Assembly: GCA_944385545.1 (NCBI GenBank)
Contig: CALWXQ010000009.1
Span: 1-44,020, forward strand
Source: an uncultured Oscillospiraceae bacterium
Lineage (GTDB): Bacteria; Bacillota; Clostridia; Oscillospirales; Oscillospiraceae
Length of the DNA: 44,020 bases
Direction: 5' to 3'
Below the pieces are notes generated by a model. It was not told the DNA's origin. It worked only from the letters and a program-made list of their open reading frames with translations, and did not search any database. The position numbers and the translations under genes were made by a program. Below, in pieces: positions 11,235 through 41,754 of the stretch. The first letter of the stretch is position 1, and each line of letters opens with the position of its first letter.

Positions 11235-11666
11235 TCAGCCATATGTCTCTTTCAGGAACAAAACAGCCTCCCGATACCCTTCTAAACCATGACCTTTGAT
11301 GGTTTTCACGCAGGCCATACCGGCGTAGGAGATCCGGCGGAAGGGTTCCCGGGCGTCCACGTCGGAGATGTGGACTTCCACCGCGGGGATGGACACCGCC
11401 TTCAGGGCGTCCAGAATGGCCACGGAGGTGTGGGTGTAGGCGGCTGGATTGATGACGATGCCATCCACTTTCCCATAGGCCCATTGGATCTTGTCTACAA
11501 GATCCCCTTCGTGGTTGGAGTGGTACTGCTCGATTTGGATCTGCTCGGCCTCGGCGGTATCCCGGAGCAGCTTCAGCAGGTCCGCGAAGGTGCTCTTTCC
11601 GTAGATTCCCGGCTCCCGAATGCCCAGCATGTTGATGTTGGGGCCATTGATGACCAGAATGTTCAT
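11235..11666 (-). CDS. aroQ: 3-dehydroquinate dehydratase, type II
   Basis: A 143-residue cytoplasmic enzyme that dehydrates 3-dehydroquinate to 3-dehydroshikimate. Motifs: NGPNINMLGIREPGIYG (with the catalytic Tyr), YHSNHEGDLVDKI, GIVINPAAYTHTSVAI and VEVHISDVDAREPFRRIS. Normal length for type II. It is the last gene of the aromatic operon, and its start overlaps the end of the aroE-aroK fusion. Confidence 0.96.
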   Translation of the reverse strand: MNILVINGPNINMLGIREPGIYGKSTFADLLKLLRDTAEAEQIQIEQYHSNHEGDLVDKIQWAYGKVDGIVINPAAYTHTSVAILDALKAVSIPAVEVHISDVDAREPFRRISYAGMACVKTIKGHGLEGYREAVLFLKETYG

Positions 11667-12889
11667 TGTGTTCCCTCCAAACAGGCCAAGATAGCCGCCG
11701 CGGCCTCAGCCACGGTGCCGTTGTTGTGGATGCTGTGGTCACAGAAGGCTTTGTACAGAGGCTTCCGCCGGTTATACAGCTCCTTCAGGGAAGTTGCCTG
11801 GGACAAGGGCCGTCCTTCCGTGGGCAGCAGAGAAAGCTCCCGCTGCAGCCAGAAGATCCGGCCGTTTTGGCGCAGCAGAGACAGGTTTTCTGCCTGGGTG
11901 ACACAGCCGCCGCCGGTGGCGATGACCAAACCCGACTGTTTTCCCAGCTCTCCCAGCACCCGGGTTTCCAGCTGCCGGAAGCCGGCCTCCCCATCCCGGG
12001 CAAAGATCTCCGGGATGGACATTCCGGCCAGACGGACGATCTCGGCGTCGGCGTCCGCGAATGAACGGTGCATGGCCTGGGCAAGAAACTGCCCCACGGT
12101 GGTTTTGCCGCAGCCGGGCATGCCGATCAGTACCACGTTCCCCACCAGAATCGACATCCTGCGGTGGATGGCGGCGATGAGCCCGTCGTCCAGGGCGGCG
12201 CCGGTGAAGCACTCCGAGGCCTCCTTGGCTTGGGCTACCAGCATCCAAAGACCGTTCTCCCAGGGAAGGCCCATGCTCTGCGCGTCCAGAAGCAGTCGGG
12301 TTCGGGAGGGGTTGTAGACCACATCCAGAACCCCCTCCAGCCGCGGGAACCCCCGAAGATCCACCGGCGACAGGCCGGTGTTGGGATACATGCCCACCGG
12401 GGTGGTGTTGACGATAACGGCGGCGTCGGCGTGGCGGGACAGGTTTTGGTAATTGTTCTCGCCGCTGCGGGAGATGATTACCACCTCCGCCCCAAGATCC
12501 AATAACCCGTTTCTGGCGGCGCAGGAGGCTCCGCCGCTGCCTAAGACCAGGGCCTTTTTCCCGGTCACTTGGATGCCGCTTTTCTTTACCATGGTGATAA
12601 AGCCGAAATAGTCGGTGTTATGGCCGAACAGACTCCCGTCCGGCCTGCGGACGATGGTATTGACGCAGCCCATTTTCCGCGCGGTGGGGGAGAGCTCGTC
12701 CAGGCAGGGAATGACCGCTTTTTTATAGGGCATGGTCACGTTCAAGCCGGTGAAATCCCCGTTTTTTAAGAAATCTGCCAATTCTTCCGGCTCTTTTTCA
12801 AACAAATCGTAGTCGTAAGTTCCCAGGAAGCTGTGGATCACAGGGGAATAGCTGTGTCCCAGCTTCCTGCCTAGCAGTCCGCACCGCAT
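11663..12889 (-). CDS. aroE-aroK: Fused shikimate dehydrogenase - shikimate kinase
   Basis: A 408-residue bifunctional protein. Residues 1 to about 245 are AroE: NVTMPYKKAV with the catalytic Lys, GHNTDYFGF, the NADP loop LGSGGASCAA and NTTPVGMYP. Residues from about 250 are AroK: P-loop GMPGCGKTTVG (about 256), the shikimate site DADAEI, FRQLE and GGGCV, and a lid Arg in TEGRPLS. So it reduces 3-dehydroshikimate and then phosphorylates shikimate. The start at 12889 overlaps the pheA stop; the in-frame ATG at 12952 is inside pheA. No stop or frameshift separates the two halves. Confidence 0.93.
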   Translation of the reverse strand: MRCGLLGRKLGHSYSPVIHSFLGTYDYDLFEKEPEELADFLKNGDFTGLNVTMPYKKAVIPCLDELSPTARKMGCVNTIVRRPDGSLFGHNTDYFGFITMVKKSGIQVTGKKALVLGSGGASCAARNGLLDLGAEVVIISRSGENNYQNLSRHADAAVIVNTTPVGMYPNTGLSPVDLRGFPRLEGVLDVVYNPSRTRLLLDAQSMGLPWENGLWMLVAQAKEASECFTGAALDDGLIAAIHRRMSILVGNVVLIGMPGCGKTTVGQFLAQAMHRSFADADAEIVRLAGMSIPEIFARDGEAGFRQLETRVLGELGKQSGLVIATGGGCVTQAENLSLLRQNGRIFWLQRELSLLPTEGRPLSQATSLKELYNRRKPLYKAFCDHSIHNNGTVAEAAAAILACLEGTQ

Positions 12890-14031
12890 CAGACCACCTC
12901 GGAGTAGCTGCCTAGATATTTGAATTCCTCGCACAGCTCGTCCAGCTCGCACATCAGCTGCACAAATTCCTCGGAGTAGATGGAGGTCTCCAGATCAAAG
13001 TAGAACATGAATTCAAACTCCCGCTCGGGTATGGGGCGGGACTCCAGCTTGGTAACGTTGATTCCCAGCGTGTAAAGCCGGGTCAGGACTTTCGCCAGGG
13101 AACCGGGCTTGTGGCTCAGAACCATCATAATGCTGGTCTTGTCGGAGCCGGGATAGATCTCCAGGTTCTTGCTGATGCAGATAAACCGAGTACGGTTGTT
13201 GCCTTTGTCCTGGATGGAGGCGGCCAGACATTCCAGACCGTACAGCTCGGCACAGGAACGGCTGCTCAGGGCGGCCACGTCGCTGCGGCCGGATTCGGCC
13301 ACCATTTCCGCGGCAATGGCGGTATTGCCCACAGGGATGATGTTGACACCCTGGAGCTGGGAAAGGAAATCTCCGCACTGGCTGATGGCCTGCTCGTGGG
13401 AGTAGATTTCCTTAATATCAGACAGCTTGGTACCGGGATTGACCAACAGGTTGTGATCCACCTTCAGCCGGAAGGTACGGACGATGGAGAAGCTGTGGTG
13501 GATCATCAGATCATAGACCTTTTTCACAGAACCGGCGGTGGAGTTCTCAATGGGCAGGATGCCGTACTGACACATCCCCTGTTCAATGGCGGAGAACACC
13601 GCTTCAAAATTCTTGAAGTAGAGGATGAAGGGATTTTTGAAGATCTTCTCGCAGGCGATCTGGGAATAAGCGCCCTCGACGCCCTGGCAGGCTACCATGG
13701 GCGCCTGGGGGAACAGGTTGGGCGTGGTTTCAATGGCCTGGGTGATCTGCCGGTACAGGGGACTGATGGTCTGGCTGCGCTTGCTTTGGTAGCTGCGGCT
13801 GAGCTCAAAGAGCATGGAATACAGAACACGGGTGTAGTTGGCCATTTCCGGGCCGGCTTTCTTTGCCACATCCTGAAGCTTTTCCCGCTCCCGTACCGGG
13901 TGGTAGATCGGCAGCCGGTGGGCTTTCTTGTAGTCGGCAATTCTGGCGGCAACTTCCATGCGCTGATCAAACAGCCGCACCAGTTGATCGTCAATGCTGT
14001 CCATTTCCTGACGAAGTTCCTTCAGATCCAT
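12889..14031 (-). CDS. pheA: Bifunctional chorismate mutase / prephenate dehydratase (P-protein)
   Basis: A 380-residue enzyme that commits chorismate to phenylalanine. Residues 1-85 form the helical chorismate mutase (LRQEMDSIDDQLVRLFDQRMEVAARIADYK). The prephenate dehydratase follows, with GILPIENSTAGSV and the TRF motif in NNRTRFICIS near residue 280. A C-terminal ACT domain (LSHKPGSLAKVLTRLYTLGINVTKLESRPIP) predicts feedback inhibition by Phe. The gene sits between aroC and the aroE-aroK fusion in an attenuator-controlled operon. Confidence 0.96.
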   Translation of the reverse strand: MDLKELRQEMDSIDDQLVRLFDQRMEVAARIADYKKAHRLPIYHPVREREKLQDVAKKAGPEMANYTRVLYSMLFELSRSYQSKRSQTISPLYRQITQAIETTPNLFPQAPMVACQGVEGAYSQIACEKIFKNPFILYFKNFEAVFSAIEQGMCQYGILPIENSTAGSVKKVYDLMIHHSFSIVRTFRLKVDHNLLVNPGTKLSDIKEIYSHEQAISQCGDFLSQLQGVNIIPVGNTAIAAEMVAESGRSDVAALSSRSCAELYGLECLAASIQDKGNNRTRFICISKNLEIYPGSDKTSIMMVLSHKPGSLAKVLTRLYTLGINVTKLESRPIPEREFEFMFYFDLETSIYSEEFVQLMCELDELCEEFKYLGSYSEVV

Positions 14032-14033
14032 GG

Positions 14034-15125
14034 TTATTTCCTCCTGTTTGTCTGGGTGTTTCCCAGTATCATGTCAAAGACGGCAATGGCTGCCGCGGCT
14101 TCCACCACGGGGACAGCCCTGGGGACGATGCAGGGATCGTGACGGCCCTTCACCACAAGGGGCTGGGCGGTCATTTGGCTGAGGCTGACGCTCTGCTGGG
14201 GGACGGAGACAGAGGGGGTGGGTTTGACGGCCACCTGAAACAGCACCGGCATGCCGGTGCTGATGCCGCCTAGGATGCCTCCGGCGTTGTTGGTTTGGGT
14301 ACGGATCCTTCCGCCCTCCAGAGTAAAGGGGTCGTTGCATTGGCTTCCGCTCATGAGTGCCGTCCGGAAACCGGCGCCAAACTCGATCCCCTTCACAGCG
14401 GGAATGCCATAGACAATGGCGGCGATGCGGCTCTCGATCCCGCCGAACATAGGCTCTCCCAATCCGGCGGGAAGGCCGGTGACGGCGCATTGGATCACGC
14501 CGCCGAGGCTGTCGCCCTGAGCCTTTGCCTGGGCAATCCGCCGGGCCATGGCGGCTCCGGCTTCCGGGGACAGGGTGGGGAAGGGGGATCCCACCTGCTC
14601 CAGCTGAGGGGCTAGGGGGTGAAAGCTCTCCCCGTCGGGAATGCCGCCAATCTGGGCGATGTGGGCGCCGATGCCGATGCCCTCCAGGGCCAGCCACTGC
14701 TTGCACAGTCCGCCGGCGATGCACAGCGGGGCGGTGAGCCGGCCGGAAAAATGACCGCCGCCAGCCGCGTCCTGGTAGCCGCCGTACTTAACCTGGGCGG
14801 TGAAGTCGGCGTGACCGGGGCGTGGGCAGTCTTTCAGATTGGCATAGTCTCCGGAGCGGGTGTTATGATTGCGGATCACGGCGGCAATGGGCGCGCCGCA
14901 GGTATAGCCCTCCAGCAGACCGCTGAGGAATTCCGGCCGGTCTTCCTCCCGCCGGGGGGTGGCCCAATCCCCTTGCCCCGGTGCGCGGCGGTTGAGGAAG
15001 CCTTGCAGGGCCTCTTGGTCTACCGGCAGTCCCGCCGGGATGCCGTCCAGGGTCATGCCGATGGCAGGGCCGTGGGACTGGCCGAAAATGGATAGCTTTA
15101 ACGATTCACCGTAGGTACTGCTCAT
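14034..15125 (-). CDS. aroC: Chorismate synthase
   Basis: A 363-residue FMN-dependent enzyme that converts 5-enolpyruvylshikimate 3-phosphate to chorismate. The N-terminal signature FGQSHGPAIGMTLDGIPAG is plain, followed by RRAPGQGDWATPRREED, RPGHADFTAQVKYG and, near the end, the conserved VVKGRHDPCIVPRAVPV. The start overlaps the end of aroA by 20 bases, so translation is probably coupled. Confidence 0.97.
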   Translation of the reverse strand: MSSTYGESLKLSIFGQSHGPAIGMTLDGIPAGLPVDQEALQGFLNRRAPGQGDWATPRREEDRPEFLSGLLEGYTCGAPIAAVIRNHNTRSGDYANLKDCPRPGHADFTAQVKYGGYQDAAGGGHFSGRLTAPLCIAGGLCKQWLALEGIGIGAHIAQIGGIPDGESFHPLAPQLEQVGSPFPTLSPEAGAAMARRIAQAKAQGDSLGGVIQCAVTGLPAGLGEPMFGGIESRIAAIVYGIPAVKGIEFGAGFRTALMSGSQCNDPFTLEGGRIRTQTNNAGGILGGISTGMPVLFQVAVKPTPSVSVPQQSVSLSQMTAQPLVVKGRHDPCIVPRAVPVVEAAAAIAVFDMILGNTQTNRRK

Positions 15126-16299
15126 AGCGTCCTCCTAACCGTCGGTATTCCCCGAGGAAATGGGGATAGGATTTTTCAATGCATTCCACGCCCAGAATGG
15201 TCACCGCCTCACGGCACACCGTGGCGGCGATGGCAGCGGACATGGCGATGCGGTGGTCGTTGGCGCTGTCCACGATCCCGCCCCGCAGTCCGGTGCCTCG
15301 GACGGTCAGAGTGTTCTCGTCAGCCTCCGCCGTTCCGCCCAAGGCTTCCAGCATGGCGATCACCGAGGCCACCCGGTCGGACTCTTTCAGCCGCAGACGG
15401 CGGATATCCGTAAACACGGCTCCGCGGCGGCAGGCGGCGACCACAGCCAGAATGGGAACCAGATCCGGGATGTCCCCGGCGGAGATGGTAAGAGGGGCCT
15501 CCAGGCCGGGCAGCAATTCCGTCACCGCCCGATCCCCCTGGGGAGAGTCCGGACACAGGTTTTCCACGGTTACGGGATTGCCCATTGCCTGGGCGGCCAG
15601 GAAGAAGGCGGCGTTGCTCCAGTCGCCTTCCACCACCAGCCGTCCCGGAGAACGGAAGGGGCCGGGGGCGACGCGCAGACCGTCGGTATCTTTACCGAAA
15701 AGCTTCATGGCCCGCTGGGTCATGCGGATATACGGAAGGGATTCTGCCTTCCCGGTGAGGTGGATGCGGCTTTCGTCCGGAAGAAGGGCCGCGGCAAAGA
15801 GAAGTCCGGTGATGAACTGGCTGGAGACGCCTGCGTCCAGGGTGAAGTCTCCCGGTCGCAGACGGCCCCGGCAGCGGATGGCATAGGCGGTGGGCCGGGA
15901 GAGGATACAGCCCATGCGCTCCATTTCCTCCCACAAGGGGGACAATGGCCGCTGGGGAAGCCGTCCCTCCAGGGTAAAGGTAGCGTCTGCCCCCAAGGCT
16001 CCCGCAATGGGGAGCAGGAAGCGCAGGGTGGAACCGCTTTCCCTACAGGGAAGCACCGGCATGTCCGGTACGGTTTGCACAGGAGTGACGGAGTAGCCGC
16101 CTTCCTCACGGGTGATCCGGGCGCCCAGCGCCTGAAGGCAGGCGCAGGTGGCTTCGATGTCCCGGTTGGTCTGGGGACAGACCAAATCGGTGGGCTGTTC
16201 CGAAAAGGCGGCGCAGATCAGCAGCCGGTGGGCCTGAGACTTGGAGGGGATGGCGCTGACGCTGCCTTGCAAAAGACCGGGGGTGATGGTAATGTCCAT
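15106..16299 (-). CDS. aroA: 3-phosphoshikimate 1-carboxyvinyltransferase (EPSP synthase)
   Basis: A 397-residue cytoplasmic enzyme that adds the enolpyruvyl group of PEP to shikimate 3-phosphate. Visible motifs are SKSQAHRLLI, the PEP site RESGSTLRFLLP, SSQFITGLLFAA, RRLRLKESDRV and NDHRIAMSAAI. The start at 16299 is chosen because GAGGAAGG lies about 10 bases before it; the ATG at 16317 would place that site inside the gene. Its start lies one base past the aroB stop. Confidence 0.95.
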   Translation of the reverse strand: MDITITPGLLQGSVSAIPSKSQAHRLLICAAFSEQPTDLVCPQTNRDIEATCACLQALGARITREEGGYSVTPVQTVPDMPVLPCRESGSTLRFLLPIAGALGADATFTLEGRLPQRPLSPLWEEMERMGCILSRPTAYAIRCRGRLRPGDFTLDAGVSSQFITGLLFAAALLPDESRIHLTGKAESLPYIRMTQRAMKLFGKDTDGLRVAPGPFRSPGRLVVEGDWSNAAFFLAAQAMGNPVTVENLCPDSPQGDRAVTELLPGLEAPLTISAGDIPDLVPILAVVAACRRGAVFTDIRRLRLKESDRVASVIAMLEALGGTAEADENTLTVRGTGLRGGIVDSANDHRIAMSAAIAATVCREAVTILGVECIEKSYPHFLGEYRRLGGRYEQYLR

Positions 16300-16300
16300 A

Positions 16301-17353
16301 TCAAAGCCCTTCCTCAATCCACGAAAGCACCTGCGCGACAGGGGTGGGCAGGATGCTGCAACGGCCGACGCACCGGGGAACGATGAGATTCACGGTGCCT
16401 CCGGCCCGCTTTTTGTCGTTGAGGGTGTACGCGTACAATTCCCGGGCAGAAAAGCAGATCCTTATAGGAAGGTCGAACCGGGATAACAATGCCAGGATCC
16501 GGCGGCTGTCCGCCTCCGGACACAGACCCCGCTTCACGGCTGCCCTGGTAATGATGGCTATGCCCGCTGCCACGGCCATGCCGTGGGAGACGGAGAAAGC
16601 GCTGGCGGCCTCAATACCGTGGCCAAAGGTATGGCCCAGGTTCAGCTTCATGCGCGCGCCGGTGTCGAATTCGTCCTCCATGACCACATCCCGCTTCAGC
16701 TCCACACATCGGGCGATCACGTTCTCCCGGTGAAAATCCGGGCCGTGGGCCTCCAAATGGGCAAACAGGGCCGGATCATAGAGAATGCTGTATTTGATGA
16801 TCTCGCCGCAGCCGTCTCGGAAGACGGTTTGCGGCAGGGAAGCCAGCAGATCCGTATCGCACAACACCAAAGACGGCTGGAAGAAGGCCCCGGCCAGATT
16901 TTTCCCTTCAGGCAGATCGATGGCGGTCTTGCCGCCCACCGAGGAGTCCACCGCCGCCAGCAGGGTGGTGGGGAGCTGGATCAGTCGGATACCCCGCAGG
17001 AAGCAGGCGGCGGCAAATCCCGCAAGATCGCCCACCACGCCGCCGCCCAGGGCGACCATCAGATCTGACCGGGTCAGGCCGTTTTTGGCCAGAAAGTTGA
17101 GAAGATCCAGGAAAACGCTGCCGTTTTTGCTGGATTCTCCGGCGGGAAACACATAGCTGATTACGGAAAAACCAGCGGCGTTCAGGCTTTCCTCCGCAGC
17201 CGCGCCGTAGAGGGGGAAAACATTGGAGTCGCTGACGATACACACTTTCTCTGCCCTGCCCAGGGTGGCTGCTGCCGTCCCCAGGGTCGAAAGCAGCCCC
17301 GGGCCGATGCGGACTTCATAGCTTCTTGAGGCATTGACGGCAACGGTTTTCAT
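16301..17353 (-). CDS. aroB: 3-dehydroquinate synthase
   Basis: A 350-residue NAD- and metal-dependent enzyme that cyclises DAHP to 3-dehydroquinate. Family blocks: GGGVVGDLAGFAAACFLRG, QLPTTLLAAVDSSVGGKTAID, the metal Glu in RDGCGEIIKY, and the metal His residues in LNLGHTFGHGIEA and VSHGMAVAAG. Normal length. The start overlaps the tyrA stop. Confidence 0.97.
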   Translation of the reverse strand: MKTVAVNASRSYEVRIGPGLLSTLGTAAATLGRAEKVCIVSDSNVFPLYGAAAEESLNAAGFSVISYVFPAGESSKNGSVFLDLLNFLAKNGLTRSDLMVALGGGVVGDLAGFAAACFLRGIRLIQLPTTLLAAVDSSVGGKTAIDLPEGKNLAGAFFQPSLVLCDTDLLASLPQTVFRDGCGEIIKYSILYDPALFAHLEAHGPDFHRENVIARCVELKRDVVMEDEFDTGARMKLNLGHTFGHGIEAASAFSVSHGMAVAAGIAIITRAAVKRGLCPEADSRRILALLSRFDLPIRICFSARELYAYTLNDKKRAGGTVNLIVPRCVGRCSILPTPVAQVLSWIEEGL

Positions 17354-18180
17354 CCGTCCACCTCCTCCTTTCTTTGCTTTCCTTCCTCCAGCAGCGCCGT
17401 CAGGGCGGCTTCGTCGTCGGCTGCAATGGCGCCGTGGTAGGCTTGCAGACTTTGGATATAGTGCTCCAGTTCAAACAGAACATTGTCCTTGTTTTCCAGA
17501 AACAGCTCCGCCCACATGCGGGGATTCAGCCAGGCCACCCGGGTCAGATCCCGGTAGCTTCCGGCAGAGAAGCCCTTGTGATCCAGGGCGGTAGGGGACT
17601 TGATAAAAGCGTTGCTGAGGATATGAGGCATCTGGGAGGTAAAGGCGATCATCCGGTCATGCTCCTGGGCGGTGGTCACGGAGAAGGCGCCGAAGCGGCA
17701 GGGCTTCAGAGATTCCTTTACCCGATCCAGCAGGTACATATCGTCGAACACCGGCGGCACCAACACCATGGGCGCCCCCGCGAACAGATCCCCCCGGCTG
17801 TACTTGAAGCCGGAGAAATGAGAACCGGCCATGGGATGTCCGCCCACAAAGGTAAAGCCGTATGCTTCCGCCAAAGGGAAGCACCGGGCGCAGATGTGCC
17901 GTTTGGTGCCGCAGCAGTCCAGAACCAGAGCGTCCCTGGAAACAAGGGGCGCCCAGCGTTCCAGCCAGTGGGCGCTGCCGGCGGGGTAGATGGCAAGCAG
18001 GATCAGCTCGCACCCGGGAATGGAGGTTTCATCCAGCTTCCCGTGGACGGCTCCGGCCAAAATGGCGAAGCTGAGCATGGCCTCATCCTGCTCCGCGGCG
18101 TAGACGGTGTGCCCTGCCATGGCATAGGCTCTGGCCAGGGAGCCGCCGATAAGCCCCAGGCCCAGGATGCCCACATTCAT
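17350..18180 (-). CDS. tyrA: Prephenate dehydrogenase
   Basis: A 276-residue NAD(P)-dependent enzyme that commits prephenate to tyrosine. The nucleotide fold is GILGLGLIGGSLARAY at the N-terminus; GGHPMAGSHFSGFKYS and the TSQMPHILSNAF segment are family marks. No ACT or chorismate mutase domain is present, unlike PheA here, so Tyr feedback probably acts elsewhere (DAHP synthase or attenuation). The start overlaps the DAHP synthase stop. Confidence 0.94.
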   Translation of the reverse strand: MNVGILGLGLIGGSLARAYAMAGHTVYAAEQDEAMLSFAILAGAVHGKLDETSIPGCELILLAIYPAGSAHWLERWAPLVSRDALVLDCCGTKRHICARCFPLAEAYGFTFVGGHPMAGSHFSGFKYSRGDLFAGAPMVLVPPVFDDMYLLDRVKESLKPCRFGAFSVTTAQEHDRMIAFTSQMPHILSNAFIKSPTALDHKGFSAGSYRDLTRVAWLNPRMWAELFLENKDNVLFELEHYIQSLQAYHGAIAADDEAALTALLEEGKQRKEEVDG

Positions 18181-19178
18181 ACGATGGCCTCCCGGATCTT
18201 ACGCACCTTGTGGCACACCTCATGGAACTGATGGGGGGTCAGGGACTGGGCGCCGTCGCACAGAGCGCAGGCGGGATTGTTGTGTACCTCGATCATGATG
18301 CCGTCCGCACCGGCGGCGGTGGCGGCGTAGGCCATGGGGGGCACCAGCTCGGCTTTGCCGGTGGCATGGCTGGGATCCACCACCACCGGCAGATGGCTCA
18401 GCTTGTGCAGCACGGAAACCGCGGACAGATCCAAGGTGTTCCGGGTGGTGGTCTCAAAGGTGCGGATGCCCCGTTCGCAGAGGATCACTTGTTCGTTGCC
18501 CTCGCTCATGATGTATTCCGCGCTCATCAGCAGCTCCTGGAGGGTGTTGGCCAGACCGCGCTTGAGAAGGATCGGCTTCTGGGTTTTGCCCAACTCCTTC
18601 AGCAGGTCGAAGTTCTGCATATTTCTGGCGCCTACCTGGATAATGTCCACATCGGCGAACAAGTCCAGGGTATTGATGTTCATGATTTCTGTGACGATGG
18701 GAAGTCCCGTGGCCTTTTTGGCCTCCAACAGCAGCCGGATGCCCTCGCCCTTCATGCCCTGGAAGGCGTAAGGTGAGGTGCGGGGCTTGAAAGCGCCGCC
18801 CCGGAGGAGGTTGGCCCCGGATTCCTTCACAGACTGGGCCACGGCAATGATCTGCTCCTCAGATTCCACGGAGCAGGGGCCGGCGATCATGGCAAAGTAT
18901 CCGCCGCCGATGCGCACATGGCCTGCCTGAATGATGGTGTCCTTGGGGTGGAACTTCCGGTTGGCTTGCTTAAACGGCTCAGAGACGCGCTTTACGCTTT
19001 CCACCATTTCCAGACTTTTCAGCAGCTCCATATCCACCCGGCTGGTATCGCCGATAAGACCCAGGACGGTGACCTCCGCGCCTTTTGAAACATGGACGTC
19101 CAGATTCATATGCTTGAGCCAATCCACCAAATGCTGCATTTGGGCGGGAGTGGTGCCCTGCTTGAGAATTGCGATCAT
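18177..19178 (-). CDS. aroF: DAHP synthase (type I-beta) with N-terminal ferredoxin-like regulatory domain
   Basis: A 333-residue enzyme for the first step of aromatic synthesis, joining PEP and erythrose 4-phosphate. Residues 1-70 (MIAILKQGTTPAQMQHLVDW and on) form the ferredoxin-like domain seen in allosteric type I-beta enzymes, where Tyr or Phe inhibits. The barrel has MIAGPCSVESEEQI, RGGAFKPRTSPYAFQG, LLKRGL, LCERGIRTFE and VVDPSHATG. The start at 19178 has AGGAG upstream; longer in-frame starts run into the terminator. It is the first structural gene after the attenuator. Confidence 0.95.
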   Translation of the reverse strand: MIAILKQGTTPAQMQHLVDWLKHMNLDVHVSKGAEVTVLGLIGDTSRVDMELLKSLEMVESVKRVSEPFKQANRKFHPKDTIIQAGHVRIGGGYFAMIAGPCSVESEEQIIAVAQSVKESGANLLRGGAFKPRTSPYAFQGMKGEGIRLLLEAKKATGLPIVTEIMNINTLDLFADVDIIQVGARNMQNFDLLKELGKTQKPILLKRGLANTLQELLMSAEYIMSEGNEQVILCERGIRTFETTTRNTLDLSAVSVLHKLSHLPVVVDPSHATGKAELVPPMAYAATAAGADGIMIEVHNNPACALCDGAQSLTPHQFHEVCHKVRKIREAIV

Positions 19179-19197: not shown

Positions 19198-19231
19198 AAA
19201 AAATGCGCCGCACGGGCAATTCGTGCGGCGC
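19198..19231 (-). terminator. Attenuator terminator of the aromatic operon
   Basis: On the minus strand a perfect 10-bp stem GCGCCGCACG / CGTGCGGCGC with a 7-base loop is followed by A and six T. It lies between the leader peptide and aroF and would stop transcription before the structural genes. Confidence 0.92.
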
Positions 19232-19279
19232 TTAAAAATACGGTTTCAGTTCCAGAGCATTCTTTGCAGCACAAATTGC
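19216..19279 (-). promoter_or_regulatory. Antiterminator pairing of the aromatic operon leader
   Basis: GCAATTTGTGCTGC (19266-19279, minus strand) can pair with GCCGCACGAATTGC (19216-19229) over 13 of 14 positions, counting one G-U pair. The second segment holds most of the left arm and the loop of the terminator, so the two structures exclude each other. Confidence 0.82.
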
Positions 19280-19310
19280 TATTACTTTTTTACGGTAAAA
19301 AAGTAATAGC
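19278..19310 (-). promoter_or_regulatory. Leader hairpin over the Tyr/Phe codons
   Basis: A perfect 14-bp inverted repeat (GCTATTACTTTTTT / AAAAAAGTAATAGC, 5-base loop) covers the codons Ser-Tyr-Tyr-Phe-Phe of the leader peptide and its stop. It corresponds to the 1:2 (pause) hairpin of a classical attenuator. Confidence 0.8.
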
Positions 19311-19350
19311 TGTAAAAGAAAAAGACGGCTGCGCAGTGCATCGATTTCAT
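19282..19350 (-). CDS. Phe/Tyr-rich leader peptide of the aromatic operon
   Basis: A 22-codon reading frame begins at the ATG 19348-19350, with GGAGG (19359-19363) eight bases before it, and ends in TAA. From residue 9 it reads VFFFYSYYFFTVKK: five Phe and three Tyr within nine residues, and no Trp. It lies in the transcribed leader, followed in order by an antiterminator and a terminator. Known analogues are PheL and similar leader peptides of enterobacteria. Ribosome stalling at Phe or Tyr codons would leave 19266-19279 free to form the antiterminator. A ribosome that reaches the stop would cover it and allow termination. So the operon should be on when Phe-tRNA or Tyr-tRNA is short. Confidence 0.88.
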   Translation of the reverse strand: MKSMHCAAVFFFYSYYFFTVKK

Positions 19351-19383
19351 GAAAGATGCCTCCATGTACGGGAACTATAGACA

Positions 19384-19412
19384 AGTATACCACGGTGGGT
19401 GGATGATTGCAA
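19384..19412 (-). promoter_or_regulatory. Promoter of the aromatic amino acid operon
   Basis: Minus strand TTGCAA (19407-19412), 17-base spacer, TATACT (19384-19389). Transcription would start about 15-20 bases before the leader-peptide ribosome site. Confidence 0.82.
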
Positions 19413-19533: not shown

Positions 19534-21672
19534 ATGGAATATTTGGATCAGCTTAACGAACAGCAGCGGGAAGCGGCGGTTACCACAGAAGGGTATATCC
19601 GGGTGGTGGCGGGGGCCGGTTCCGGAAAAACGAAAACCCTGACCGCCCGGTACATGTATCTGGTGGATCAGCTAGGGATCTCTACGGCCAATATTCTGTG
19701 CGTGACCTTTACCAATAAGGCCGCGGCAGAGATGAAAAAACGGATCCGCCGCCAGCTGCCGGATCAGGATCTGGGGCGGATCACCACCTTCCACGGCTTT
19801 TGCGTGGGGCTTCTGAAGGAGGACTGCCATGTGGTGCAGTATCCGTCCACCTTCATCGTCCTGGACGAGGAGGATAAGGAGACGATGCTCCGGGGCGTCT
19901 TCGCGGATCTGGGAATCACCAGCCGGGAGCTGACCGTCAAGGAGGCGGTGGATCACATCGGCTGGCGCAAGGGCGGACGGGGCTATGTAAAGACTCTGAT
20001 TGGGGATCCGGAGGAGCTGCGGCGGTTGGCGGACGCCGCGACTACCCTGAAGGATAAGGTGATGTACCGGTACTTCTGGGAGCAGCGCAAGTGCTACGGG
20101 CTGGACTTTGACGACCTGGTTTATTTTACCCTGTACATCTTGCAGCAGGACGGCCCCACCCGGGAGAAGTGGCAGCAGCGGCTGGAATATGTGATGGTGG
20201 ACGAGTTTCAGGACATTGACAAGGATCAGTATGCCCTGGCGGATATTCTGTCCGGCTATCACAAGAATCTGTTTGTGGTGGGGGATCCGGATCAAACCAT
20301 CTACACCTGGCGGGGCGCGGACGTGAAATTCATTCTGGAATTTGACAGCCGCCATAGAAATGTGAAGACCATTTATCTCAACACCAATTACCGCTCCGTT
20401 CCTCAGATTCTGGCGGCCTCCAACGCCCTGATCGACAAGAATCGGGACAGGCTGAAAAAGCGGCTCATATCTGTTCGGCCGGATGCCCGGAAGCCCCTGT
20501 ATTTCCACGGAAAGACCGGCCAGCTGGAAGCGGACTGGATCACTGCCAATATGCGCGCCCTTCATGAAGGCGGCATGCCCTACAACGCCATGGGCGTGCT
20601 GTACCGGGCCCATTATGTTTCCCGGACGGTGGAAGAGTCCCTGATCCGCAATAAGATCCCCTATGTGCTCTATTCCGGTGTGGAATTTTACAAGCGCAAG
20701 GAAATCAAGGATGTGTTGTGCTATCTGCGGATGATCTACTCCGGGGACGACATCAGCTTTCTGCGAACGGTCAACGAGCCCCGCCGGGGGGTGGGACGCA
20801 CCCGGATCGCGGCGCTGAAGGAATTCGCCGGGATGAACCGGTGCAGCCTCTATGAAGCGCTGGAAGCGAACCTGGAAACGGATCTGTTCCGGCGGAGCAA
20901 GGCCAGGGAATACGTCCGACTGGTGGAAAAGTACCGGGCCATTTACGACGGGATGGATCTGACGGATCTGCTGGCGGGGATCCTCAGCGAAAGCGGCTAT
21001 GAGGATATGCTACGCTCCTGCGGGGAGGAAGAACGCCTGGATAACCTGGCCGAGCTGAAGCAGGCCATTTACGACTTCTCCCGAAAAGCCGGGGAGGAGG
21101 TCAGCCTGGGGAATTATCTGGATCACGCCGCCCTATTTACCAATATGGATCAGACGGAAAAGGCTCAGGCGGTGAAGCTGATGACCGTTCACGCCGCCAA
21201 GGGTCTGGAATTCCCGGTGGTATTCCTGTGCGGCCTGTCCGAGGGAGTCTTCCCTGGGAAACGGGCCAACACCCGAGAAAAGCTGGAGGAGGAGCGGCGG
21301 CTGTGCTATGTGGCCTTCACCCGGGCCAGGGACCGGCTGTTCCTGTCCGACGCGGCAGGGAGCAATTATGACGGCTCCTTCCGCTATCCCAGCCGGTTCC
21401 TGTTCAACGCGGAGAAGGAACATGTGGAATACGCGGTGCCGTTGGATCCGGAGCTGGAGGAGCGGGCGTTGGAGCAGATCCGCAGGACGGAAGATCCCCG
21501 AACTGCCGCTGGCCGGGGCGATGACCTGACAGGAAGGCGGGTGAGACATCCGGTGTTCGGCGAGGGCGTCGTTATCGGCATTCCCAGAGATCGGGAAGGG
21601 GTCATCGTCCAGTTCGATTCCGTGGTGACCCCCAGAACCTTCGGCCCCGGGGCAAACATCACCTATTTGTAA
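19534..21672 (+). CDS. pcrA: ATP-dependent DNA helicase PcrA/UvrD
   Basis: A 712-residue superfamily 1 helicase that unwinds DNA 3' to 5' in repair and replication restart. Motifs: Q motif LNEQQREAA, Walker A VAGAGSGKTKT (about residues 28-38), FTNKAAAEM, Walker B VDEFQDID, GDPDQTIYTWRGA, NYRS, TVHAAKGLEFPVVFL and YVAFTRARDRL. The C-terminus carries a small Tudor-like tail (GRRVRHPVFGEGVVIGI...VQFDS), as in PcrA. GGAGG lies before the ATG. It is transcribed divergently from the aromatic operon. Confidence 0.93.
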   Translation: MEYLDQLNEQQREAAVTTEGYIRVVAGAGSGKTKTLTARYMYLVDQLGISTANILCVTFTNKAAAEMKKRIRRQLPDQDLGRITTFHGFCVGLLKEDCHVVQYPSTFIVLDEEDKETMLRGVFADLGITSRELTVKEAVDHIGWRKGGRGYVKTLIGDPEELRRLADAATTLKDKVMYRYFWEQRKCYGLDFDDLVYFTLYILQQDGPTREKWQQRLEYVMVDEFQDIDKDQYALADILSGYHKNLFVVGDPDQTIYTWRGADVKFILEFDSRHRNVKTIYLNTNYRSVPQILAASNALIDKNRDRLKKRLISVRPDARKPLYFHGKTGQLEADWITANMRALHEGGMPYNAMGVLYRAHYVSRTVEESLIRNKIPYVLYSGVEFYKRKEIKDVLCYLRMIYSGDDISFLRTVNEPRRGVGRTRIAALKEFAGMNRCSLYEALEANLETDLFRRSKAREYVRLVEKYRAIYDGMDLTDLLAGILSESGYEDMLRSCGEEERLDNLAELKQAIYDFSRKAGEEVSLGNYLDHAALFTNMDQTEKAQAVKLMTVHAAKGLEFPVVFLCGLSEGVFPGKRANTREKLEEERRLCYVAFTRARDRLFLSDAAGSNYDGSFRYPSRFLFNAEKEHVEYAVPLDPELEERALEQIRRTEDPRTAAGRGDDLTGRRVRHPVFGEGVVIGIPRDREGVIVQFDSVVTPRTFGPGANITYL

Positions 21673-40030: not shown

Positions 40031-40232
40031 GAATCAAATATCGCGTTGAACGGAAAGAGTACCGCAGAGTATGAACCATCAGAGAGTCCCGGCCGCAGGC
40101 TGGAAGCCGGGATTGGAGAAGGGCGGGAAGGTGCGTCCGGGAGCGAATGCCGGCAAAAAGTGATAAATGAGAGTGGAACCGCGGCAAAGACCGCCTCTTG
40201 TGCCAGAATGTGTGGTATGAGAGGCTTTTTTT
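40031..40232 (+). ncRNA. T-box leader, specifier TGC (Cys)
   Basis: A tRNA-sensing leader upstream of cysS. The T-box core AGAGTGGAACCGCGG is at 40170-40184. Stem I carries AGAGAGTCCCGG and GGCTGGAAGCC. In the specifier loop, GAGTA faces GGAAGGTGCG; helices CCGC/GCGG above and CGGA/TCCG below place TGC (40132-40134) as the specifier codon, matching cysteine. The terminator has arms GCCTCT (40193-40198) and AGAGGC (40220-40225), extended by wobble pairs, and T-run 40226-40232. Uncharged tRNA-Cys should favour readthrough. Confidence 0.92.
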
Positions 40233-40338: not shown

Positions 40339-41754
40339 ATGTATCTTTATAACTCTGCATCGCATAAAAAGGAACTGTTTGTGCCGAAGGATCCCAACCT
40401 TGTGAAGATGTATACCTGCGGCCCTACGGTGTACCACTATGCCCATATCGGCAACCTGCGCACGTATATTATGGAGGATGTGCTGGAGAAGGCCCTGCGT
40501 TACCTGGGATACCCTGTCAAGCGGGTGATGAACATCACTGACGTAGGCCACCTGTCTTCCGACGCGGATACCGGCGAGGATAAGATGGTCAAGGGCGCCA
40601 AGCGGGAGCATAAGACCGTTATGGAGATCGCCCGGTATTATACCGACGCTTTCTTCTCCGACTGCGATAAGCTGAACATCAAGCGGCCTGACGTGGTGGA
40701 GCCTGCCACCAACTGCATCGACGAATATATCCATATGGTGCAGACCCTGCTGGAGAAGGGAAGCGCCTACCTGGCTGGAGGAAATGTGTATTTTGACACA
40801 TCCACCCTGGAAAAATACTATGTATTCAACGACCACGATGAGGAGGATCTGGCCGTGGGCGTCCGGGAGGGGGTTGAGGAGGATACCAATAAGAGAAACA
40901 GGAACGACTTCGTCCTTTGGTTTACCAAGTCTAAGTTTGAGGATCAGGCCCTGAAATGGGACTCTCCCTGGGGCGTGGGCTATCCCGGCTGGCATATCGA
41001 GTGCTCCTGCATCTGCATGAAGCACCTGGGAGAAGATCTGGATATCCATGCCGGCGGCATCGACAATGCCTTTCCCCACCACACCAATGAGATCGCCCAG
41101 TCCGAGAGCTTCCTGGGACACCCGTGGTGCCATTACTGGTTCCACGTCCACCATCTGAATACGGACTCCGGAAAAATGTCCAAGTCCAAGGGGGAGTTTT
41201 TGACGGTCTCCCTGCTGGAAAAGAAGGGGTATGATCCCATGGCCTACCGGCTGTTCTGCCTGCAAAGCCATTACCGCCGGAACCTGGTGTTCTCCTGGGA
41301 GAATCTGGACAACGCGGCGGTGGCCTATGATAAGCTCATTGCCCGGATCGCCGCCCTGAAGGAGGAGGGGCCGGTGGAACAGGAGGTCTTCGATCAGCTG
41401 AAGCAGCGCTTTGTCAACGCTTTGAACGGGGATGTGAATACATCCGTGGCGGTGACGGCCCTTTACGATGTTCTGAAGGCCAAGTGCGGCGACGCCACCA
41501 AGCTGGCGGTGCTGCAGGATTTTGACCGGGTGCTGTCCCTGAACCTGCTTTCTGCCGCCCAGGCGCTGCGGGTAAAGCAGACCCGGGAGGAAGCTGCCCA
41601 GCAGGATCCCCAGATTGACGCCCTGGTGCACCGGCGCACCCAGGCAAAAAAGGAGAAGAACTTTGCCGAAGCGGATCGGATTCGGGATGAACTGAAAGCC
41701 AGAGGCATTGAGATTATCGACACCCCTCAGGGGACAAAGTGGAGAAAAGTATGA
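40339..41754 (+). CDS. cysS: Cysteinyl-tRNA synthetase
   Basis: A 471-residue class I synthetase that charges tRNA-Cys. The zinc site begins with TCGPTVY, the HIGH motif is HIGN (about residue 35), the second zinc block is WHIECSCICMKHLG, and the KMSKS loop is KMSKSKG (about 279). The C-terminal part ends with EADRIRDELKARGIEIIDTPQGTKW, the usual cysS ending. AGGAGG precedes the ATG. It is controlled by the Cys T-box and its stop overlaps the polA start. Confidence 0.97.
   Translation: MYLYNSASHKKELFVPKDPNLVKMYTCGPTVYHYAHIGNLRTYIMEDVLEKALRYLGYPVKRVMNITDVGHLSSDADTGEDKMVKGAKREHKTVMEIARYYTDAFFSDCDKLNIKRPDVVEPATNCIDEYIHMVQTLLEKGSAYLAGGNVYFDTSTLEKYYVFNDHDEEDLAVGVREGVEEDTNKRNRNDFVLWFTKSKFEDQALKWDSPWGVGYPGWHIECSCICMKHLGEDLDIHAGGIDNAFPHHTNEIAQSESFLGHPWCHYWFHVHHLNTDSGKMSKSKGEFLTVSLLEKKGYDPMAYRLFCLQSHYRRNLVFSWENLDNAAVAYDKLIARIAALKEEGPVEQEVFDQLKQRFVNALNGDVNTSVAVTALYDVLKAKCGDATKLAVLQDFDRVLSLNLLSAAQALRVKQTREEAAQQDPQIDALVHRRTQAKKEKNFAEADRIRDELKARGIEIIDTPQGTKWRKV

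Follow-up and report, generated by a model that had tools for sequence, protein, structure and literature searches.

In the window, by which we mean the whole 44,020-nucleotide stretch of contig CALWXQ010000009.1 (uncultured Oscillospiraceae bacterium) that was analysed, the region upstream of aroF reads as a ribosome-mediated attenuator of the trp/pheL type. We put the probability of this reading at about 0.9. Judged from the sequence, the element would sense the charging of Phe-tRNA, and probably of Tyr-tRNA as well, and would control an operon for the shikimate pathway and for Phe and Tyr synthesis. Comparative and computational evidence supports the short reading frame, the promoter-like site, three mutually exclusive pairings, the terminator and the association with aroF. 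The predicted leader is not isolated: it recurs across the order and extends to further orders of the same class.

Architecture of the leader and its operon

The leader lies between a divergent helicase-like gene (19534-21672, plus strand) and aroF. Because this neighbor is divergent, the terminator of the leader does not serve it. Direct reading of the minus strand, to which all leader and operon coordinates refer, gives from 5' to 3' a promoter-like site, GGAGG, a short ORF, a hairpin (P1), an antiterminator arm, and a terminator. The promoter-like site (19384-19412), TTGCAA and TATACT separated by 17 nt, has 9 of 12 matches and a TG before the −10. The Shine-Dalgarno sequence GGAGG (19359-19363) precedes a leader ORF of 22 codons, MKSMHCAAVFFFYSYYFFTVKK (19282-19350; ATG at 19350, TAA at 19284-19282, then TAG), which gives, on sequence, a short translatable frame with its own ribosome-binding site and start codon. 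The codons before the Phe/Tyr run contain GCAGCCG (19326-19332), the 5' strand of a lower stem indicated by the fold and by the swap test described below; in the fold of the window, this strand and the 3' half of the antiterminator arm are able to form a duplex. P1 (19278-19310), the 1:2 hairpin, covers the Tyr/Phe codons and the stop codon and is indicated by the fold and by covariation. It has 15 bp, whereas the preliminary description had counted 14.

The antiterminator arm GCAATTTGTGCTGC (19266-19279; direct reading and swap test) pairs at 13 of its 14 positions, one of them G-U, with the left arm and loop of the terminator, whose loop AATTGCC thus also takes part. The intrinsic terminator itself is a GC-rich hairpin of 10 bp (19205-19231), indicated by sequence and covariation, with a directly read U tract of six T after an A (19198-19203). 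It stands before the first gene, with 19 nt between the end of the U tract and the aroF ATG (19178). The fold of the window leader is 4.6 SD below dinucleotide shuffles. Direct reading confirmed the promoter-like site, the GGAGG, the 22-codon peptide, the 13/14 pairing of the arm, and the six-T terminator that had been described beforehand.

The gene order behind the leader is aroF-tyrA-aroB-aroA-aroC-pheA-aroEK-aroQ, and the mechanical ORFs overlap or sit at most 2 bases apart. The first gene encodes DAHP synthase (aroF, 18177-19178; ferredoxin-like domain and DAHP_synth_1), followed by prephenate dehydrogenase (tyrA, 17350-18180; Pfam PDH_N and PDH_C, with NCBIfam models below their cut-offs), 3-dehydroquinate synthase (aroB, 16301-17353; TIGR01357 above its cut-off), EPSP synthase (aroA, 15106-16317, mechanical ORF start; TIGR01356 at 264 bits, cut-off 287) and chorismate synthase (aroC, 14034-15125; above cut-off). 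Then come a chorismate mutase - prephenate dehydratase with an ACT domain (pheA, 12889-14031; Pfam PDT, CM_2, and ACT), a fused ORF of shikimate dehydrogenase and shikimate kinase (aroE-aroK, 11663-12952, mechanical start; Pfam Shikimate_dh_N and SKI) and a type II 3-dehydroquinate dehydratase (aroQ, 11235-11666; family-model and Pfam matches). Several NCBIfam scores fall under their strict cut-offs, and the Pfam domains tested, in the five of the eight proteins given to Pfam, are above theirs. The set comprises the shikimate pathway with the Phe and the Tyr branch, and these domain assignments bear out the eight-gene aromatic operon noted earlier.

Recurrence of the leader before aroF

Eighty-six genomes of the same genus have aroF. 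We examined 36 upstream regions from the genus and found the leader in 34; G010 and G034, whose aroF genes are divergent, have none by the criterion used. The nearest named relatives of the window genome are uncultured, many of them Oscillospiraceae and one a Faecousia sp. A motif search found a Phe/Tyr-rich ORF together with the arm in 56 of the first 59 aroF loci, which comprise 34 of the genus and 25 of other genera of the family, the window included; arm conservation is partly selected for, because the arm pattern was handwritten after viewing the sequences and received literal additions. No leader was found before aroF in three of the 25 family loci outside the genus (L036, L038, and L039). 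These three belong to one genus, of which L035 and L040 have the leader. By eye, an open frame appears to reach aroF in the three loci, so a leader could sit further upstream.

A criterion without the arm asked for a short ORF in the 450 nt upstream in which 6 or more of 10 residues are Phe, Tyr, or Trp. Such an ORF precedes aroF in 63 of the 80 named loci (56 of 73 once 7 repeat loci are excluded), compared with 4 of 1333 other ORF upstreams of the same named loci and 1 of 400 shuffles, so that end-product codons are clustered in the ORF; 17 of the 80 loci lack one. Six loci (L122, L128, L132, L144, L149, and L156) are titled Bacteroidaceae, Thermoguttaceae, Lentisphaerae, or Kiritimatiellae. 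Their aroF is 63-69% identical to that of the window, close to clostridial, so the titles may be wrong.

We built a covariance model, R1, from the 56 leader cores and searched 394 genomes of the order with strict filters, which lose weak matches. R1 matched in 47 genomes, seven of which had fed the model (G000, G001, G006, G021, G107, G151, and G197). Forty-six matches lie just before aroF (L060-L089 except L072; L035; L238-L253), and 39 of these places are new. The remaining one, L072, has the leader MKFAASANLYFGYSYFYFYFAKVKAICDAQQRKSA before an ABC transporter (coordinates 1501-1603 and 1752-2753), ahead of an ABC_sub_bind (PF04392) binding protein and a permease, which suggests that the attenuator has also moved to an amino acid transporter. 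Among the named loci, 43 of 80 matched R1 on the coding strand at E up to 0.05, 36 of them new. L036, L038, L039, L235, and L236 gave no match to R1. The preliminary description had called such a leader unusual. Such ribosome-driven control is considered rare among its clostridial relatives; the leader recurs in many of them.

A scan for other amino-acid-rich leaders with a terminator before 308 ORFs (400 kb of the same-genus genome G055, plus the window) returned only the aroF leader of G055; the window leader was missed because a long mechanical aroF ORF starts inside it.

Beyond these loci, the same criterion called leaders in 12 of another 20 genomes from the window's family (18 of other genera, plus G010 and G034), chosen among lower-identity matches. 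It also called leaders before 24 of 40 aroF genes in other families of the class, sampled at one or two per family, and before 8 of 20 in other classes of the phylum. The only control for these two samples is mononucleotide shuffles (23/800 and 4/400, respectively), since the 4/1333 control comes from the named loci; one locus (L202) is only 120 bases long, and called ORFs such as those of L206, L207, and L259 may be chance. At E up to 0.01, R1 recognizes 16 of these 60 loci from the class and phylum samples. Part of the spread is thus recognizable homology, and the remainder may be convergence or chance. A search for known RNA families in 20 upstream regions, those without a called leader and a few doubtful ones, matched only at L216, a class relative with a T-box (235-502) before aroF in place of the peptide leader, that is, a switched sensing system.

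Pairings and covariation

For the statistical analyses we used 77 leaders, consisting of the 34 of the genus, 22 more of the first 59 loci, and 21 that the order-wide search supplied. In each case the leader is the best-scoring ORF, with a predicted start. Duplicates (L060-L063, L069, and L078) and L072 are outside the set, and L036, L038, L039, L075, and L082 were dropped because the arm pattern failed, although L075 and L082 do have leaders. The choice of terminators took no account of the arm (L047 was a manual correction), and like is set against like in the swap tests.

In the swap test, pairing partners were exchanged among the 77 loci in 20000 permutations per pairing. The arm with the left arm and loop of the terminator gave −17.1 kcal/mol for native partners and −13.4 for swapped partners, P1 gave −10.63 and −8.62, and the lower stem, in which the 3' half of the arm pairs with codons preceding the Phe/Tyr run, gave −10.55 and −8.92. 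None of the 20000 permutations was as good as the native pairing in any of the three cases. Ten composition-shuffled controls showed differences from −0.36 to +0.46, one of them with a z of −2.05 (126/5000), and three decoy regions showed +0.04 to +0.25. The antiterminator pairing and the terminator are mutually exclusive. The lower stem beside P1 would hide part of the arm, much as the trp model has it. The geometry proposed beforehand is supported but had overlooked this stem.

Compensatory changes in the stems, suggested earlier as a check, are present. On the 77-row alignment A2, 8 of 12 pairs of P1 changed on both sides, which none of 500 shuffles reached, and 48 cells were changed on both sides compared with 16.2 in shuffles (0/500 reach 48) and 3-11 in slid versions; the related sequences are not independent, and changed cells count sequences rather than events. 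Thirty of the 48 cells fall at one pair; there, the Tyr codon TAT is mostly turned into Phe TTT through its middle base, with a matching change on the other strand. The terminator covaries in four of five measures, the exception being the number of pairs with both-side changes, which was not beyond shuffles (9 vs 7.5; 75/500). Arm-terminator position −13 is CG in 53 cases, TA in 18, GC in 2, AT in 1, and TG in 1, and position −7 is GC in 53, CG in 9, TA in 6, AT in 5, and others in 2; this pair table takes the best duplex of each sequence and is biased in favor of pairing.

Coding and promoter signals

Each of the 77 leaders carries no fewer than 2 Phe and 2 Tyr codons (the ORF caller required at least 5 Phe+Tyr), so the Phe/Tyr frame is conserved among relatives as the preliminary description had anticipated. 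In the codons up to 14 nt before the arm, the 77 loci hold 360 TTT/TTC, 293 TAT/TAC, and 8 TTA/TTG, part of the Phe/Tyr codons lying also in the hairpin. The ratio of 360 to 8 makes the U-rich stretch look like codons and not just U-rich RNA. A broad SD-like pattern precedes 73 of the 77 leaders, the starts having been chosen partly by SD. A looser promoter pattern precedes 74 of the 77, compared with 133 of 1540 shuffles. The predicted transcript start in the window lies upstream of 19350, in agreement with the earlier proposal.

The ORF ends before the arm in 49 of the 77 loci, beyond it in 27, and inside it in 1. In the window's genus it stops before the arm, and a ribosome at the stop codon would reach over the arm. 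In L041, L048-L050, L055, L057, L066, L071, and others, the ORF runs through the arm, often as ..VKxIxAA... In those 27 loci the arm is thus both coding and regulatory.

Computed switch and proposed mechanism

We computed the antiterminator probability with a ribosome mask at different positions. Over the 77 leaders the mean was 0.71 with the mask at the Phe/Tyr codons, 0.39 with no ribosome, and 0.08 with the mask at the stop codon; the last value is partly a product of the design, in which a mask at the stop overlies the arm. For leaders with a stop far past the arm, we put the mask on the arm itself. The probability was higher for the stalled than for the absent ribosome in 67 of 77 leaders and higher for the stalled ribosome than for one at the stop in 76 of 77. 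For the window leader it was 0.85-0.96 stalled, 0.77 without a ribosome, and 0.03 at the stop. With the antiterminator favored at 0.77, readthrough might occur even on a transcript that is not translated, which departs from the textbook case. In the full transcript the terminator is favored both without a ribosome (0.94) and with a ribosome at the stop (0.95). As the terminator wins thermodynamically once fully transcribed, the switch must be kinetic and chosen as the RNA emerges. In this model, ribosome position can flip the switch, and the state without a ribosome is not clearly "off" in the window.

The proposed mechanism would run as follows. When charged tRNA is plentiful, the ribosome would reach the stop codon or, in some relatives, translate through the arm. 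A ribosome at the stop would cover the antiterminator arm, and the terminator would form. When the Phe/Tyr codons are hungry, the ribosome would stall on the 5' side of P1, opening P1 and the lower stem. The freed arm could then pair with the emerging left arm and loop of the terminator, and the polymerase would read through into aroF. From this arrangement we infer both the response to starvation and the timing between ribosome and polymerase.

Transcription-translation coupling

Such a switch needs a ribosome near the polymerase. The claim that transcription and translation are uncoupled in Firmicutes reportedly goes back to Johnson et al. in 2020 and is known to us through a review. According to passages of that review, the B. 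subtilis polymerase often outruns the ribosome, short stop-to-terminator distances predict the same for Firmicutes, and ribosome-mediated attenuation is reduced in Firmicutes. In 400 kb of G055 (L276-L295), we found 47 terminators after 323 ORF ends at a median of 8 nt, 32 of them within 12 nt. The corresponding figures for E. coli K-12, from 300 kb, were 29 after 258 ORF ends at a median of 26 nt, 6 of them within 12 nt (Fisher p 0.0001); the comparison used mechanical ORFs and a simple scan, with E. coli as sole comparator. In a slightly different scan, all 18 terminators at 14 syntenic family loci were within 12 nt, and these non-independent loci were left unused. Across 65 other named loci, that scan placed terminators at a median of 19.5 nt, 33% of them lying within 12 nt, so the uncoupling signature holds for the genus and is not shown order-wide. 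For the 77 leaders the distance from their own stop to the terminator has a median of 49 nt, unlike the ordinary genes of G055.

So the genus shows the uncoupling signature yet appears to keep, at this locus, a switch that depends on the ribosome. Uncoupling of this kind would count against the proposed mechanism. At slightly under even odds, we tentatively suggest that Phe/Tyr attenuators before aroF form a family that is widespread and in part ancestral in Clostridia and that functions despite the uncoupling signature of the genus. If this is true, the leader must have a local means of synchronizing polymerase and ribosome, such as a pause at P1, and ribosome-controlled transcription would be compatible with uncoupling across the genome in the phylum. 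Given the signature in the genus, the element makes coupling in Clostridia directly testable.

Alternative explanations

The leader may in practice sense only Phe-tRNA, with the Tyr codons of minor importance; we think this variant of the best explanation unlikely, though worth serious consideration. Phe outnumbers Tyr in the leaders (mean 5.1 vs 3.9 per leader), and the C. glutamicum AroR leader peptide, with Phe-Tyr-Phe, is reported in a review passage to answer Phe limitation and not Tyr limitation (PMC11802643). However, every one of the 77 leaders keeps its Tyr codons, Tyr and Phe codons swap at one P1 position with a compensating change, and the operon holds both tyrA and pheA. From codons and operon, Tyr is probably sensed as well. 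Stalling could also have a cause other than hungry Phe/Tyr codons, as in nascent-peptide arrest or a general sensor of translation stress. The C-terminal part of the leader is well conserved in the genus (YYYFF..KK), and excerpts of the literature describe drug-inducible leader ORFs in Gram-positive bacteria. Across genera, though, the leaders differ widely in how many Phe and Tyr they contain and in what sequence, and 46 of the 47 R1 matches precede aroF, the other one an ABC transporter, which makes an arrest peptide or stress sensor highly improbable.

If the polymerase outran the ribosome, the leader could not register translation early enough, and the hairpins might be a plain partial terminator or a target of a protein or tRNA. 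This would agree with the terminators of G055, 32 of 47 starting at most 12 nt from the stop compared with 6 of 29 in E. coli, and with the description of Firmicutes as largely uncoupled in the passages of the review. We nevertheless regard it as improbable, since leader ORFs and Phe/Tyr codons would not stay together with covarying arms under uncoupling, and since the leaders' median of 49 nt departs from ordinary G055 genes. A T-box or other known riboswitch has a negligible probability. The genome does have 12 T-box matches, 4 of them above the Rfam cut-off, and the class relative L216 carries one before aroF, but the leader gave no T-box match even at E up to 10. With 12 T-box matches in the same genome, one of them before cysS, the leader is no substitute for missing T-boxes. 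Across these comparisons, we retain ribosome-mediated attenuation by Phe/Tyr codons as the best explanation.

At family cut-offs, Rfam returned nothing at the leader. Relaxing to E up to 10 gave 14 rows, none reaching its family cut-off. The best was Hrs10, an sRNA on the opposite strand (26.2 bits, cut-off 108), and the next-best were microRNA models on the hairpin, below cut-off and taken as chance. Phe_leader (RF01859) matched weakly on the same strand at 19325-19198 (18.9 bits, cut-off 55). Elsewhere in the window, a T-box-like leader on the plus strand (40037-40201; 61.3 bits, missed at the Rfam cut-off of 93) precedes an ORF (40339-41754) that by eye reads like cysteinyl-tRNA synthetase (cysS), and a cobalamin riboswitch lies on the minus strand at 1090-1276 (40.2 bits).

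Comparison with known systems

The comparative evidence strongly supports a classical ribosome-driven switch that spans a whole order, most of whose members are uncultured gut bacteria, and reaches past it. In this phylum such control is generally ascribed to T-boxes and riboswitches, and the polymerase has been inferred to outpace the ribosome. The element is a compact natural system for asking if, and by what means, the two stay synchronized in Clostridia. It also leads to the prediction that these bacteria adjust their synthesis of aromatic amino acids to the charging of Phe- and Tyr-tRNA.

The E. coli pheL and trpL attenuators work by the 1:2 / 2:3 / 3:4 logic. The leader described here resembles pheL (RF01859) and trpL in its peptide rich in the product of the pathway, and differs in having both Phe and Tyr codons, in controlling the whole pathway, and in missing the RF01859 cut-off. 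T-boxes bind tRNA directly. The T-box (RF00230) is likewise a means of amino-acid/tRNA control in Firmicutes, but it has no match at the leader. Staphylococcus aureus and Bacillus belong to the class Bacilli. Their leader-peptide attenuators, as far as the passages describe them, are also from Firmicutes and concern other amino acids and genes: a leucine-rich attenuator of S. aureus ilv, supported by suppressor mutations (PMC5794164), and predicted His leaders of Bacillus hisS*/hisZ (PMC2965389). Passages of the latter paper state that, to its authors' knowledge, none had previously been shown outside Proteobacteria and Actinobacteria (PMC2965389). For Actinobacteria, the cited passage reports no conserved upstream elements of Phe/Tyr operons as of 2005 (PMC1262725), and among Shewanella candidates a passage lists aroF as a Tyr-tRNA-sensing attenuator (PMC2659441). 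In the passages located from a survey of 104 RNAs, an element of this type does not occur (PMC2864571).

In searches of the open-access literature we found no published clostridial Phe/Tyr attenuator, which agrees with the earlier remark that no described example was known in this group; outside the group there is a described relative, aroR of Corynebacterium glutamicum. This aroR-aroF attenuator was reportedly described by Neshat et al. in 2014. According to the cited passages, the aroR leader stands before aroF, contains Phe-Tyr-Phe, and is ribosome-mediated (PMC11802643, PMC4046766); the review passage has it respond to Phe and not to Tyr (PMC11802643). By these descriptions it is similar to the leader reported here in placing a peptide with Phe and Tyr ahead of a DAHP synthase operon, and unlike it in being actinobacterial and in having three aromatic residues named, compared with nine here. 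The uORFC-13-1 motif before aroF of Acholeplasma is similar in that passages describe a predicted uORF with Phe codon(s) and a terminator (PMC8632094). Compared by that description, it comprises 24 sequences from Acholeplasma and environmental samples, with a U run coding at least one Phe and no Tyr mentioned in the cited passages (PMC8632094). The mechanism is a known one, and the clostridial element is a new and widespread representative of leader-peptide attenuators.
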